DNA from: an uncultured Sulfurovum sp.
GTDB lineage: Bacteria > Campylobacterota > Campylobacteria > Campylobacterales > Sulfurovaceae
NCBI GenBank assembly: GCA_902727895.1
Contig: CACVAP010000043.1
Coordinates: forward strand, 1 to 34,826
Length of the DNA stretch: 34,826 nucleotides
Direction: 5' to 3'
Notes under the pieces: model-generated
What the model saw: only the letters and a program-made list of their open reading frames with translations
Databases searched by the model: none
What the model was told of the DNA's origin: nothing
Program-made: the position numbers and the translations under genes
Part shown: piece after piece, positions 29,515-34,826 of the stretch
Layout of the letters: every line of letters starts with the position of its first letter
How positions within the stretch are numbered: position 1 is the stretch's first letter

Positions 29515-31050
29515 TTAAGCCCAAACACCTTTGATAATATAAAATACAATTGCAGAAAGCATAGCAGCAACAGGAACGGTAATAATCCATGCAGCAACAA
29601 TCTTTCTAACCATACCACGTTTTACATACGTCTCTTTAAGTGAACGTTTAAGTGCTTTGGTTTTTTTCTTCTCAAATTTAATGGTTTCAAAAAGTTCAGA
29701 TTTTCTTTTGTAATCATCACCAACAGTTTCTAATTCTGCTTTAAAAGCATCAACTTTTTCTACCTGAGCAGCAAGTGCAACATGTTTTTCATTCGCACCT
29801 TTTCTGTCCATCCACTCTCTAAGGAAACCAACACCAAATACCCCACCAACAGCAATATGTGTAGAAGAAACAGGAAGTCCAAGTTGAGAAGCAATAACAA
29901 CCGTAATTGCAGCAGCCATCATAATAGAAAAGGCTCTCATCTGGTCAAGTTCAGTAATCTCTGTACCAACTGTTTTAATAAGTCTTGGACCAAACAGTGC
30001 CAAACCAACTGAAAGACCAAGCCCACCAACAATCATTACCCATAATGGAATAGCAGCTTTAGCCGAAATGGTTGTATGTGCCAATGCATCGTAAATAGCA
30101 GCCAAAGGTCCAACAGCATTCGCTACATCATTCGCACCATGTGCAAAAGAAAGAATTGCTGCTGCAAAAATAAGTGGAATCGTAAATAGTGTGTTAATTG
30201 CTGCACGGTCATTTGACAATGTTGCAACTTTTGCTGCAACACGTGGCTTAACCATAAGGTAAGTAATACCTGCACCTATAGCACCAAATACAAGTGCTAC
30301 TGCAAGTGTTGGTTTTTTAGTTTCAGGTAAGAAAGGAAGGATATCAACAATGTCTACCCATACTTTTTTAAGACCTTTTAATGTCAAGTACGTAATAAAT
30401 GCCATTGCCATAATAGACACCAAGATAGGAACAATTTTCTTAGCTGATTCTAACCTATTATCTTTATGTAAAATCTCTGATTTAATAATATAAAGGAAGG
30501 CAGCAGCAATCAAACCACCAAGAACAGGAGAAATAACCCATGAAGCAGCAATCTTACCCATCGTTCCCCATGAAACAACAGCAAAACCACCAGCAGCAAT
30601 ACCAGCACCCATAACACCACCAACAATAGAGTGTGTTGTAGAAACAGGGGCTTTAAGTGCTGTAGCAAATGTCAGCCATAAAGCAGCAGCTAACAAGGCA
30701 GCAGCCATTGCATAAACAAAGATCATTGGGTCACCAGCAAAAGCAGCAGGATCAATAATACCTTTTTTAATGGTCTTAACAACATCACCACCAGCAATCA
30801 ATGCACCAGCAGCTTCAAATATAGAAGCAATAACAATCGCCCCACCAATGGTTAATGCACCAGCACCAACAGCTGGACCAACATTGTTAGCGACATCATT
30901 TGCCCCAATGTTCATTGCCATGTAAGCCCCAAATACAGCTGCCATCATTAAGAAGCCTGAGTTGGCTACGTGTCCAAATGCATAGTTCACATAAATTGCT
31001 ACAGCAATTGCAAACCCTGCTCCAAGTAGTGTTTTAATCATGTTATTCAT
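29515..31050 (-). CDS. PiT-family inorganic phosphate transporter
   Basis: This is a 511-residue membrane permease with the duplicated PiT signature: GANDVANNVGPAVGAGA in the N-terminal half and HGANDVANAVGPLAAIYDA in the C-terminal half. Each half has an S-T-T/S-T-H motif (VSTTHSIVGG, VSSTHIAVGG). About ten membrane helices surround a charged cytoplasmic region (about 435-485, Lys/Glu-rich). It imports phosphate (as metal phosphate) with protons or sodium at low affinity. It lies downstream of phoU with an 86-bp gap holding PhosR-like repeats that overlap its probable -10. GAGGACGG lies 10 nt before the ATG. Confidence 0.93.
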   Translation of the reverse strand: MNNMIKTLLGAGFAIAVAIYVNYAFGHVANSGFLMMAAVFGAYMAMNIGANDVANNVGPAVGAGALTIGGAIVIASIFEAAGALIAGGDVVKTIKKGIIDPAAFAGDPMIFVYAMAAALLAAALWLTFATALKAPVSTTHSIVGGVMGAGIAAGGFAVVSWGTMGKIAASWVISPVLGGLIAAAFLYIIKSEILHKDNRLESAKKIVPILVSIMAMAFITYLTLKGLKKVWVDIVDILPFLPETKKPTLAVALVFGAIGAGITYLMVKPRVAAKVATLSNDRAAINTLFTIPLIFAAAILSFAHGANDVANAVGPLAAIYDALAHTTISAKAAIPLWVMIVGGLGLSVGLALFGPRLIKTVGTEITELDQMRAFSIMMAAAITVVIASQLGLPVSSTHIAVGGVFGVGFLREWMDRKGANEKHVALAAQVEKVDAFKAELETVGDDYKRKSELFETIKFEKKKTKALKRSLKETYVKRGMVRKIVAAWIITVPVAAMLSAIVFYIIKGVWA

Positions 31051-31083: not shown

Positions 31084-31116
31084 ATTTTATTACAAAAATG
31101 TTACCAAATGGTTACA
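31084..31116 (-). promoter_or_regulatory. Three phosphate-box half-sites overlapping the pit -10, reversed orientation
   Basis: On the plus strand TATTACA (31088-31094), TGTTACC (31099-31105) and GGTTACA (31110-31116) repeat every 11 bp with AAAA and AAAT spacers. Relative to pit they point the opposite way from the boxes before pstC. The last one overlaps the likely minus-strand -10 TAAAAT (31089-31084). This geometry suggests repression of pit when the regulator is active. Confidence 0.6.
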
Positions 31117-31136
31117 AAAATAAGTCAAACTGAACT

Positions 31137-31802
31137 TTAAAGCTTTCCACCCATACGTGCAAAAATAATTCTCTCAGCAATGTTTTCAAGTCTGTCTATA
31201 ATTTTTAAATTCTTTCTAAAATATTTCAACAAATTAAAATAATCTTCAGGGTTTCCTTCTGCATCACTCATCTTCTGCACCATCTCTTTTTCAAGTATGG
31301 AATATATATCCTCAGTTTTCGCATTTTCAACAGATATTTTTGAAATAAGCTTCTTTATTTTATCATCGTCATCAAATGTTTTCAACATTTCTAAAACATA
31401 TTCAAAACTGTTTATAGTAGACTTGTTAATACGCAAAGAATCAGAAATAAACTCACTCATGTCTCTATTGTCTTCCATTAAAACTATCTGCATTTTTTTA
31501 AGATAATTGTTAATATAGGTCTGTATTCTATTAAGTGCAGAAGTAACTTTAAAGTAAGAAACCATCTCACGTAAATCTCTAGCCCCAGGCGTATACTTAG
31601 CAAAAATAAGAACGATATCATTATCAATTTTTTCAGTAACAGGAGAAAGTTCTTTAAGTTCAGTACGTATTGCTTCTATGTCAGATACTGAGTTGTTTTT
31701 TATCGCGTCCATTGCCAACTTATTTGTGTTCGCTAAGCTTTCAACCATCTCTATAATAGAGTCTCTTACGGCATGTCTCGCATCGTGATATTGTGGTAAC
31801 AT
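31137..31802 (-). CDS. phoU: PhoU-family phosphate signalling protein
   Basis: This 221-residue all-helical protein has the PhoU three-helix repeats. YTPGARDLREMVSYFKVTSALNRI in the first half is the conserved metal/phosphate-region helix of the family. The second repeat ends IDRLENIAERIIFARMGGKL. PhoU links the Pst importer to the PhoR-type kinase and keeps the pho regulon off in phosphate. The start overlaps the pstB stop as TAATG. No kinase gene lies beside it. Confidence 0.88.
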   Translation of the reverse strand: MLPQYHDARHAVRDSIIEMVESLANTNKLAMDAIKNNSVSDIEAIRTELKELSPVTEKIDNDIVLIFAKYTPGARDLREMVSYFKVTSALNRIQTYINNYLKKMQIVLMEDNRDMSEFISDSLRINKSTINSFEYVLEMLKTFDDDDKIKKLISKISVENAKTEDIYSILEKEMVQKMSDAEGNPEDYFNLLKYFRKNLKIIDRLENIAERIIFARMGGKL

Positions 31803-32584
31803 TATCCAAATCTCCCTGTAATATAATCTTCTGTTAATTTCTCATTAGGATTCATAAAAATGGTATCAGTTTTATCATACTCAACCATGTCACCTAAATA
31901 CATAAATGCTGTGTAGTCACTCAAACGACTCGCCTGTTGCATGTTATGCGTTACAATCACTACAGATACATCTTTTTTAAGCTCAGCAATCAACTCTTCA
32001 ATGGCTCCTGTCGAAATAGGATCCAATGCTGAAGTAGGTTCATCAAAAAGCATTACTTCTGGTTTAAGTGCTACAGCTCTAGCAATACATAAACGCTGTT
32101 GCTGTCCACCACTCATACCAAGTGCTGAGGTGTTCATTCTGTCTTTAGTTTCATTCCAAATGGCTGCATCTTTTAAAGCTTTTTCAACACGTCCATCAAG
32201 TTCCGACTTATTTTTTACCCCTGCGAGCTTCATTCCATAAGCCACATTGTCATAAATACTCATTGGAAAGGGCGTAGGTTTTTGAAAAATCATTCCTACT
32301 TGCTGACGTAAAGAGATTAAATCATTCTCTTTTTTAAGATCCAAAATATTCTCTTTACCCTTAGCACCATAAAGGTTAATTTCACCCTCATACTTGTTTC
32401 CAGGGTAAAGATCATGAATACGGTTCATGGCTCTCAGTAGAGTAGATTTACCACACCCTGAAGGACCAATCATCGCTGTAATTTTATTTTTTTCAATCGG
32501 AAGATTTATGTTTTTAAGTGAAGGATCATCAACCCCTGCATAGGTAAAGTTAAAATCTTTGGTTTCCATTATTAAGTTGCTCAT
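31802..32584 (-). CDS. pstB: Phosphate ABC importer ATP-binding protein PstB
   Basis: This 260-residue ABC ATPase has Walker [10 protein letters not shown], the Q-loop in [18 protein letters not shown] (typical of PstB), signature MSGGQQQR, Walker B VMLFDEP and the His switch in [10 protein letters not shown]. It powers high-affinity phosphate uptake with PstC and PstA. Its stop overlaps the phoU start (TAATG); pstA ends 9 bp upstream. Confidence 0.96.
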
Positions 32585-32593
32585 TTGCTTCCT

Positions 32594-33403
32594 TTACTTT
32601 TTATTTCTGGTCATGTAACGACCTGTTAAATTAATGATTAATACAATCGCTGTCAAGACAAAAGATGCTGCCCAAGCCAACTCACGACTTGCTTCATCTG
32701 GATACGTTGCCAAGTTATAAATACTTACGGTTAGAGAAGGAAACTGTCCTGTTAAATCCATGGTAAAAAACTGGTTGTTCGCCGAGGTAAATAAGAGTGG
32801 TGCTGTCTCTCCAATAATTCTTGCAAATGAAAGTAAGATACCTGTGGTAATTCCTACCTTCGCAGCTTTCACAACAATCTGCATAATAATCTTATGCTTC
32901 GACCCACCCAATGCAATTCCAGCTTCACGTAACTCTTTGGGTACAAGTGCCAACATGTTGTCGGTGGTACTGATAATAATTGGAATCATCATAATGGTCA
33001 AGGCAATAATCCCTGCAAAACCGTTGTAACTTCCAAATGGTGCAACAAAAATTGCATATACAAAAACCCCAATAACAATCGAAGGAGCTGACATCATAAC
33101 ATCACTTAAATTTCTGATAACAGATGCCAACTTTGAGTTGTTAGAGTATTCACGTAACCAAATTCCTGCAAACATCCCTATAGGAATCGCAATCACCGAA
33201 GCAATGGTTGCCATGGTAAACTGACCTACTAAAAGGTTTCTAATTCCCCCTTCAACCAAGTCATTGGTAAAAGTTGAAATGTGTAAAGAAGAAACTCCTT
33301 TGTAAGTTAAAGTCGCCAAAATCCAAAAAAGAAAAGATATTCCAATCACAGCCGACAAGGTTGAAAGCACCAAGATTATTTTGTTTAATAAAAGTCTATT
33401 CAT
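32594..33403 (-). CDS. pstA: Phosphate ABC importer permease PstA
   Basis: This 269-residue inner-membrane permease has six predicted helices. The coupling-helix EAA loop is KELREAGIALGGSKHKIIMQIV. GETAPLLFTSANNQFF in the last third is the characteristic PstA segment. Its ATG overlaps the pstC stop as TAATG. It forms the pore with PstC. Confidence 0.95.
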   Translation of the reverse strand: MNRLLLNKIILVLSTLSAVIGISFLFWILATLTYKGVSSLHISTFTNDLVEGGIRNLLVGQFTMATIASVIAIPIGMFAGIWLREYSNNSKLASVIRNLSDVMMSAPSIVIGVFVYAIFVAPFGSYNGFAGIIALTIMMIPIIISTTDNMLALVPKELREAGIALGGSKHKIIMQIVVKAAKVGITTGILLSFARIIGETAPLLFTSANNQFFTMDLTGQFPSLTVSIYNLATYPDEASRELAWAASFVLTAIVLIINLTGRYMTRNKK

Positions 33404-34260
33404 TACTTAACCTTTTGTCTTAAGAAGTAGAACTTAGCTACCGAGATAATTGCTAAACTCACCACAAATAAAACAAGTGCTAAGTAGTACATTGAACTCA
33501 TTTCTAGCCCCATTGCTTCTGAGAAGTTGTTTGCTAAAAGAACAGGTATCGAGGTTGTTGGATCGGTTATGTTACTTGGTATGCTCATCACTGAACCAAT
33601 CAAGAAGGCAACAGCCATGGTCTCACCTAAAGCACGTCCAAGTGCTAAGATAATCGAACCAATAATCCCACCTTTTGAATAAGGCATAATCACATCTTTA
33701 ATAACCTCAAACTTCGTAGCACCCATTGCGTAGGCTGACTCTTTAAGAACATCGGGAACGGTATTCATGGAGTCACGTGTAATCGCTGCCATAAATGGAA
33801 TAATCATAATGGCTAAAACAACTCCTGCTGTCAAAAGACCAACACCCTGCCCTCCAAATGTTGACTGAATAATTGGTGCTAAATAGAAAAGTCCCCACAT
33901 ACCATAGATAATACTTGGAATAGCAGCCAACAACTCAATGGCAATTGAAACTGGTTTTACCAATGTCTTATGTGCAATTTCTGTCAAGAAAATAGCAATC
34001 CCCATTGCCAATGGTGTCGCAATCGCCATAGCGATTAATGTACTCAACAAGGTACCAATAATAGGTATGAACCCACCAAAAATACCTATCTCTTCATCAT
34101 CTTCATCAGCTTCCCATACTTCACTACCTAAAAAATCAAATCCAAATTCACGGATTGAGTCTTGTGCGTAAGTAAAAAGTATGGAGAAAATTCCAATAAG
34201 AATGAAAAATGAGATTGTTGCTGAGAAAAACGAGAAATTTTTAAAGAGTTTTCCACCCAT
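33403..34260 (-). CDS. pstC: Phosphate ABC importer permease PstC
   Basis: This 285-residue inner-membrane permease has an N-terminal helix, a periplasmic segment rich in Asp/Glu (EVWEADEDDEEIGIFGG) and then helices including LLAAIPSIIYGMWGLFYLAP. The EAA loop is PDVLKESAYAMGATKFEVIKDVIMP, followed by ALGRALGETMAVAFLIG, the PstC hallmark. It is the first gene of pstCAB-phoU. The usual pstS binding-protein gene is not upstream; instead there is a 456-bp gap with two phosphate boxes. AAAGG precedes the ATG. Confidence 0.95.
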   Translation of the reverse strand: MGGKLFKNFSFFSATISFFILIGIFSILFTYAQDSIREFGFDFLGSEVWEADEDDEEIGIFGGFIPIIGTLLSTLIAMAIATPLAMGIAIFLTEIAHKTLVKPVSIAIELLAAIPSIIYGMWGLFYLAPIIQSTFGGQGVGLLTAGVVLAIMIIPFMAAITRDSMNTVPDVLKESAYAMGATKFEVIKDVIMPYSKGGIIGSIILALGRALGETMAVAFLIGSVMSIPSNITDPTTSIPVLLANNFSEAMGLEMSSMYYLALVLFVVSLAIISVAKFYFLRQKVK

Positions 34261-34287: not shown

Positions 34288-34320
34288 ATTTTACTTTTTA
34301 TTGGTAACATTTTGGTAACA
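34288..34320 (-). promoter_or_regulatory. Phosphate-box promoter of pstCAB-phoU
   Basis: On the minus strand two perfect TGTTACC repeats (34320-34314 and 34309-34303) are separated by AAAA, an 11-bp period. The core GTTAC-n-AAAA-n-GTTAC differs from the C. jejuni PhosR box GTTTC-n-AAAA-n-GTTTC at one base per half. Exactly 9 bp later comes the -10 TAAAAT (34293-34288), the spacing expected when the regulator replaces the -35. The leader to the pstC ATG is about 20 nt. Confidence 0.75.
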
Positions 34321-34491
34321 AGGGGGATGTAGGTCGGACTGCCCTCTGTCCGACATCAATTGGCATGAAACAAAAATTTCTATAGCAAATTTATTTTGAT
34401 CTTTAAAAATATTATCATATTCATTGATAAACCTTTCAAATTCTTTACTTCCTTTTTTAGAAAAATTGTTAGATTCAAACTTGTTTATTTC
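34291..34491 (-). pseudogene. Start-less reading frame, possible gene remnant
   Basis: A 66-codon minus-strand frame opens directly after a TGA and has no usable start near its beginning. Residues 1-45 look protein-like (for example SKEFERFINEYDNIFKD), while the last 20 are encoded by the REP-like hairpin and the phosphate box. It may be the decayed 3' end of a lost gene that ran toward pstC. I cannot identify the parent, and chance cannot be excluded. Confidence 0.3.
34329..34354 (+). repeat. REP-like hairpin with GTAG foot
   Basis: GTAG (34329-34332) is followed at once by a 7-bp stem GTCGGAC / GTCCGAC with an 8-nt loop TGCCCTCT. It is a GC-rich island in AT-rich DNA. A GTAG tetranucleotide at the foot of a hairpin is the recognition layout of REP elements mobilised by REP-associated tyrosine transposases. 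Only one copy lies in this window. Confidence 0.5.
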
Positions 34492-34607
34492 TCAAAGTTT
34501 AATTGATAGGGTTTTGTTTAAAGTTGGAGAGTAATTTTTTGTTAGGTTAGAAAGGATTTAAGTAGCTTGTCCCCTTTTATTCTTACCCTTGTAGATATAT
34601 TGTCTTT

Positions 34608-34640
34608 ATTATAATGGGTGTTGCTAACATTTTGGTAACA
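34608..34640 (-). promoter_or_regulatory. Second phosphate-box promoter, reading left into a gene-less stretch
   Basis: On the minus strand TGTTACC (34640-34634), AAAA and TGTTAGC (34629-34623) are followed after 9 bp by the -10 TATAAT (34613-34608). The 20 bases 34621-34640 match 34301-34320 at 19 positions, exactly 320 bp apart. Transcription should start near 34601 and run toward pstC. Confidence 0.65.
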
Positions 34641-34680
34641 GCATAAACCTAAAGGATTTTACTTTTCAACCAAATAAAGC

Positions 34681-34703
34681 TATAATATTCCTACAAAACG
34701 TAG
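34681..34703 (+). promoter_or_regulatory. Promoter and small dyad before the Phd-like antitoxin
   Basis: AGC-TATAAT (box at 34681-34686) lies 30 nt before the ATG. The dyad CTAC-n5-GTAG (34691-34703) covers the likely start site and could be an autoregulatory operator. AAAAGGA follows as ribosome site. Confidence 0.5.
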
Positions 34704-34716
34704 TAAAAGGAAAATT

Positions 34717-34826
34717 ATGCAAACCGTAGCAATAAGAGATTTAAAAAATAATCCATCTTCTATGACAAAGTATCTTGATGAGGGTAGTTCAGTATTTGTC
34801 ACACGGCATGGCAAACCTATAGGTAT
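34717..34826 (+). CDS. Phd/YefM-family antitoxin (5' part; runs off the window)
   Basis: The first 36 codons begin MQTVAIRDLKNNPSSMTKYL and continue DEGSSVFVTRHGKPIG. This is the N-terminal DNA-binding part of Phd/YefM antitoxins, with the usual T-R-H/N-G-K/R-P strand. The start has AAAAGGA 6 nt upstream. A Doc-, YoeB- or PIN-type toxin gene is expected just beyond the right edge. Confidence 0.82.
   Translation, partial: MQTVAIRDLKNNPSSMTKYLDEGSSVFVTRHGKPIG

Follow-up and report, generated by a model that had tools for sequence, protein, structure and literature searches.

Why should a phosphate-type promoter stand intact in front of no gene of its own? The window considered here (34,826 nucleotides, the whole of contig G000:C43 in a draft binned Sulfurovum assembly of 105 contigs and 2.96 Mb) carries two PhoB-type boxes close together on the minus strand. 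One, TGTTACCAAAATGTTACCAA (34301-34320), belongs to pstC (33403-34260, minus strand) and is followed after 7 bp by the -10 hexamer TAAAAT (34288-34293). The other, TGTTACCAAAATGTTAGCAA (34621-34640), is followed by TATAAT (34608-34613) and a predicted transcription start at about 34601. A preliminary description of this DNA, made from the sequence by itself, had pointed out the resemblance, and the two boxes are indeed identical at 19 of 20 bases; it had also given both the same spacing to TATAAT, of which the spacing holds (7 bp in each case) but the pstC hexamer is TAAAAT. For the second box it had offered three readings: a small RNA, a long alternative leader for pstC, or the leftover promoter of a lost gene such as pstS.

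The box at 34621-34640 is built of two 7-nt direct TGTTA(C/G)C repeats, 4 nt apart and with an 11-bp period (TGTTACC-AAAA-TGTTAGC); direct repeats with this period define the PHO box (PMC4415409), and the 7 bp to TATAAT match the distance at pstC and at pstB in related genomes. Pho-box promoters responding to PhoR-PhoB and its relatives, PhosS-PhosR of Campylobacter among them, likewise carry a pair of 7-nt direct repeats, the period again being 11 bp, just 5' of a -10 element and ahead of pst genes. The window's repeat unit is TGTTACC rather than the CTGTCAT of E. coli, and the site is a putative one, known from its sequence, from which we infer PhoB-type control; unlike the usual promoters of this kind, it has no gene of its own. 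The single change of TTACC to TTAGC might weaken binding. Going by base composition, a 20-mer that departs from the box at no more than one position is expected about 2e-5 times in the window and 0.0015 times in the genome, and its 14-base core occurs exactly at only two sites in the 2.96-Mb genome, namely these two boxes; counting Pho boxes across the whole genome with two mismatches allowed told us nothing (105 hits, where the reversed pattern had 184). A literature search on Sulfurovum and the Pho regulon turned up, judged by title and abstract, no paper on its promoters.

What follows the second box toward pstC is a patchwork. As the preliminary description had said, 34330-34600 holds no intact gene on either strand. 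The start-less frame that it had noticed is present, but is an incomplete account of the stretch: the frame (34375-34461, minus strand), rejected as a gene, is a piece of an HNH-nuclease-like gene without a start (55-64% identity, E 1.5e-6 to 5.7e-6; its full-length relatives are themselves only weakly assigned to HNH, below the Pfam cut-off), and the opposite strand carries, at 34456-34581, the remains of a gene for a DUF3368 PIN-type toxin, namely its 3' end (88% identity to G019:C223 1585-1708). The G019 counterpart is half of an intact UPF0175-DUF3368 pair situated just 5' of pstC. Next toward the box comes a transposon-end motif, GGTAAGAATAAAAGGGGACAAGCTACTTAAA (34557-34587, minus strand), with 29 of 31 bases common to the ends of an element in G009:C42; this is an IS200/RAYT-type transposase element whose layout resembles that of TIR-flanked RAYTs (PMC3733652). 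In the window, the motif marks the putative breakpoint. In another genome (G025:C216, about 1483-1525; L100) it takes the form of a near-perfect palindrome, AATAAAAGGGGACAGGCTACTTTAAAGTAGCCTGTCCCCTTTTATT, with no transposase adjoining, much like a miniature mobile element.

At the end of this patchwork nearest pstC is a GC-rich hairpin, which the preliminary description had located exactly (34329-34354). It is a GTAG-type REP hairpin, GTAGGTCGGACTGCCCTCTGTCCGAC (plus strand): a GTAG-tagged palindrome with a 7-bp stem and no U-tract, of unremarkable stability relative to shuffled sequences (z -1.4). It was considered as an intrinsic terminator and rejected, none being predicted there. The identical 26-mer is repeated in other genomes (G002, G024 and G029), and in G002 a RAYT gene (NF047646, E 7e-35) lies beside REP copies; no Y1_Tnp match was found in G000, so the association with a RAYT holds in G002 and not within G000. 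Two more copies, inverted and about 100 bp apart, occur in G000:C74:1270-1408 (L002), for a total of only three found in this genome. GTAG repeats are on record from Sulfurovum (PMC3733652), and the GTAG-type REP/RAYT systems of that report share with these copies the GTAG end, the short palindrome, the inverted pairs and, in G002, the neighboring RAYT; G000 differs from them in its mere three copies and its want of a Y1_Tnp match.

The origin of the second promoter is indicated by the 27 nt immediately past its -10 hexamer (34581-34607, minus strand). These match the 5' leader of pstB in G001 at 22 of 27 bases, in G020 at 19 and in three other same-genus genomes at 16-17, as against only 8 of 27 for the window's own pstC leader, and the summed leader identity past the -10 was never equalled in 20000 shuffles. 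A ribosome-binding-like AAGGG lies within them (34586-34590, minus strand). The triplet at 34578-34580, the position of the pstB start codon in relatives, is ATA in the window. We call this a former pstB leader because the homology in the alignment breaks off at the start-codon position and pstB does not follow.

The box itself is homologous to the pstB boxes of same-genus genomes, and the whole succession of box, 7-bp gap, TATAAT and 27-nt leader is shared with the pstB leaders of Sulfurovum-like genomes (G009, G001, G020 and others). Box, TATAAT and leader stand immediately 5' of pstB in G009, G032, G001, G014, G031 and G020; searched as a pattern extended to GTGTC, the combination occurs once per genome in five genomes, each time before pstB, and the reversed-pattern control gave zero matches. 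A genus-wide search with 34360-34826 as query brought out a longer match in G009, which is among the closest relatives: 231 bp of the window comprising flank, box and leader (34596-34826) are about 85% identical to G009:C58:9243-9472, directly 5' of pstB. In G009, pstC-pstA come first; a toxin-antitoxin-like pair follows on the opposite strand, then the box and TATAAT, an AGAGGAG-containing leader, pstB starting at GTG, and phoU, the antitoxin homologue being divergent and beside the pstB promoter. The window element, too, adjoins an antitoxin gene: the 5' part of a Phd/YefM-type gene (34717-34826, plus strand), truncated by the contig end, with a TATAAT of its own at 34681-34686 (the 36 residues present score slightly below the Pfam cut-off). 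Where the leader in relatives runs into pstB, however, that in the window is followed by debris from the start codon onward.

In two of these genomes, pstA and pstB are parted by unrelated genes on the opposite strand, and pstB has its own Pho box in each: in G009:C58 (L108) by the toxin-antitoxin-like pair, and in G032:C50 (L123, L042) by an opposite-strand gene for an AAA_14/DUF4143-type ATPase. Conservation in relatives, the lack of which the preliminary description had named as grounds for refutation, divides by location. Almost every genus member with a pstC gene has the pstC box 5' of it, and no second box like that at 34621-34640 was found upstream of pstC among them; upstream of pstB, the box is conserved.

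Where, then, is pstB now? The sole pstB of the genome (31802-32584, minus strand) lies 10 bp behind pstA, an arrangement common to G019, G030, G021, G024, G017, G002 and G005. The pst operon (31137-34260) is a mosaic, its nearest relatives differing gene by gene: the closest pstC is that of G009 (91.7%; G019, 85.5%), pstA is nearer to G019 (91.1%) than to G009 (88.7%), as is pstB (92.8% and 89.7%), and of the genomes compared G020 has the closest phoU. FastTree trees are discordant in the same way: that of pstC and pstA together places G000 beside G009 (support 1.0), that of pstB beside G019 (support 0.93). Mosaic identities and discordant trees are consistent with a fused pstCAB arrangement having recombined with a locus of the G009 kind, in which pstB is transcribed separately. 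Elsewhere in the window, a gene for a PHO4/Pit-family phosphate transporter (29515-31050, minus strand) has three TTAC half-sites 5' of it at 31088-31118 (plus strand), in reverse orientation with an 11-bp period and abutting its -10-like TAAAAT. The same layout is present in G031 (L129), and its geometry suggests that the phosphate regulator may repress rather than activate this gene.

Taken from the comparisons above, the element at 34621-34640 is very probably a former pstB promoter and leader, cut off by a rearrangement and probably still reading into pstCAB-phoU. Its original role would have been to drive pstB(-phoU) as a transcription unit of its own; rearrangement at the transposon-end motif would have severed it at the pstB start codon, so that it now lies some 320 bp 5' of the pstC promoter, with toxin-antitoxin and nuclease debris following it and pstB fused behind pstA. 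Under phosphate starvation the promoter would fire as the distal member of a tandem pair, its transcript continuing into pstCAB-phoU behind about 335 nt of leader. The homology of box, -10 and leader to those of pstB, the flank with the antitoxin gene that G009 shares, the kind of debris present and the abrupt end at the start codon are there in the sequence; the order of events we infer.

Does the stranded promoter still act? Because box, spacing and -10 hexamer are intact and no terminator follows, it is probably still phosphate-responsive and reading into pstCAB-phoU. No terminator-like site was found between 34600 and pstC, and for this reason the long alternative pstC leader, one of the readings in the preliminary description, is likely as a present consequence of the captured promoter. 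A more specific proposal, which we advance tentatively, is that the captured promoter is maintained in working order as the distal one, so that two tandem PhoB-type promoters would drive pstCAB-phoU, the outer of them contributing about 335 nt of leader, REP hairpin included, that would tune pst expression. A pure fossil is a possible reading at a similarly guarded level: the origin would be the same, but the promoter would be silent, or its transcript would stop short of pstC, with no present role. That the DNA past the promoter is debris, and that the promoter conserved in relatives at this place is that of pstC alone, speak for such a fossil, whereas the intactness of box, spacing and -10 and the lack of a terminator-like site downstream speak for activity. 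The likelihoods attached to the stranded-promoter explanation and to the fossil overlap, because the origin is shared and only present activity differs.

Of the remaining alternatives, one that we consider improbable is an assembly artefact, in which a different locus or strain would have supplied the last 245 bp, wrongly joined here. The break in the pstB leader (about 34580) does lie some 245 bp from the contig end, and the motif at the junction is repeated in relatives; against this, searches of the assembly turned up neither a further copy of the junction motif nor a further pstB, and its other contigs gave no continuation of the antitoxin module. A small RNA induced by phosphate starvation and made from 34330-34600 is very unlikely. 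A strong-looking promoter with a hairpin 250 bp downstream speaks for it, but the hairpin is a dispersed REP and a terminator of the RNA's own is absent. The stretch consists of unrelated gene and mobile-element fragments that are not conserved as a unit, and an Rfam search of the region gave no family above threshold; a plus-strand match to Tombus_5 (25.8 bits, cut-off 43) was taken as chance. Least probable of all, to the point of being negligible, is a deleted pstS: this gene precedes pstC in many bacteria, but here it is intact (TIGR00975, E 1.5e-89) on contig C66, behind a gene for an OmpR/PhoB-type regulator and its own box, TGTAATCAAAATGTTACCAA, and the leader left in the window matches those of pstB. 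The earlier suggestion of a leftover promoter was thus sound as to the promoter, with the gene being pstB, which moved, and not pstS.

A stranded pstB promoter, as proposed here, is ordinary biology: its parts are of known kinds and it has a clear evolutionary explanation. An orphan regulatory box is not necessarily the sign of an undiscovered small RNA. Members of the genus have their pst genes either in a single operon or divided into units that each carry a Pho promoter. The arrangement in the window, a clear fossil of operon rearrangement, would be a readable intermediate of operon evolution, in which a promoter survives beside the operon that absorbed its gene.
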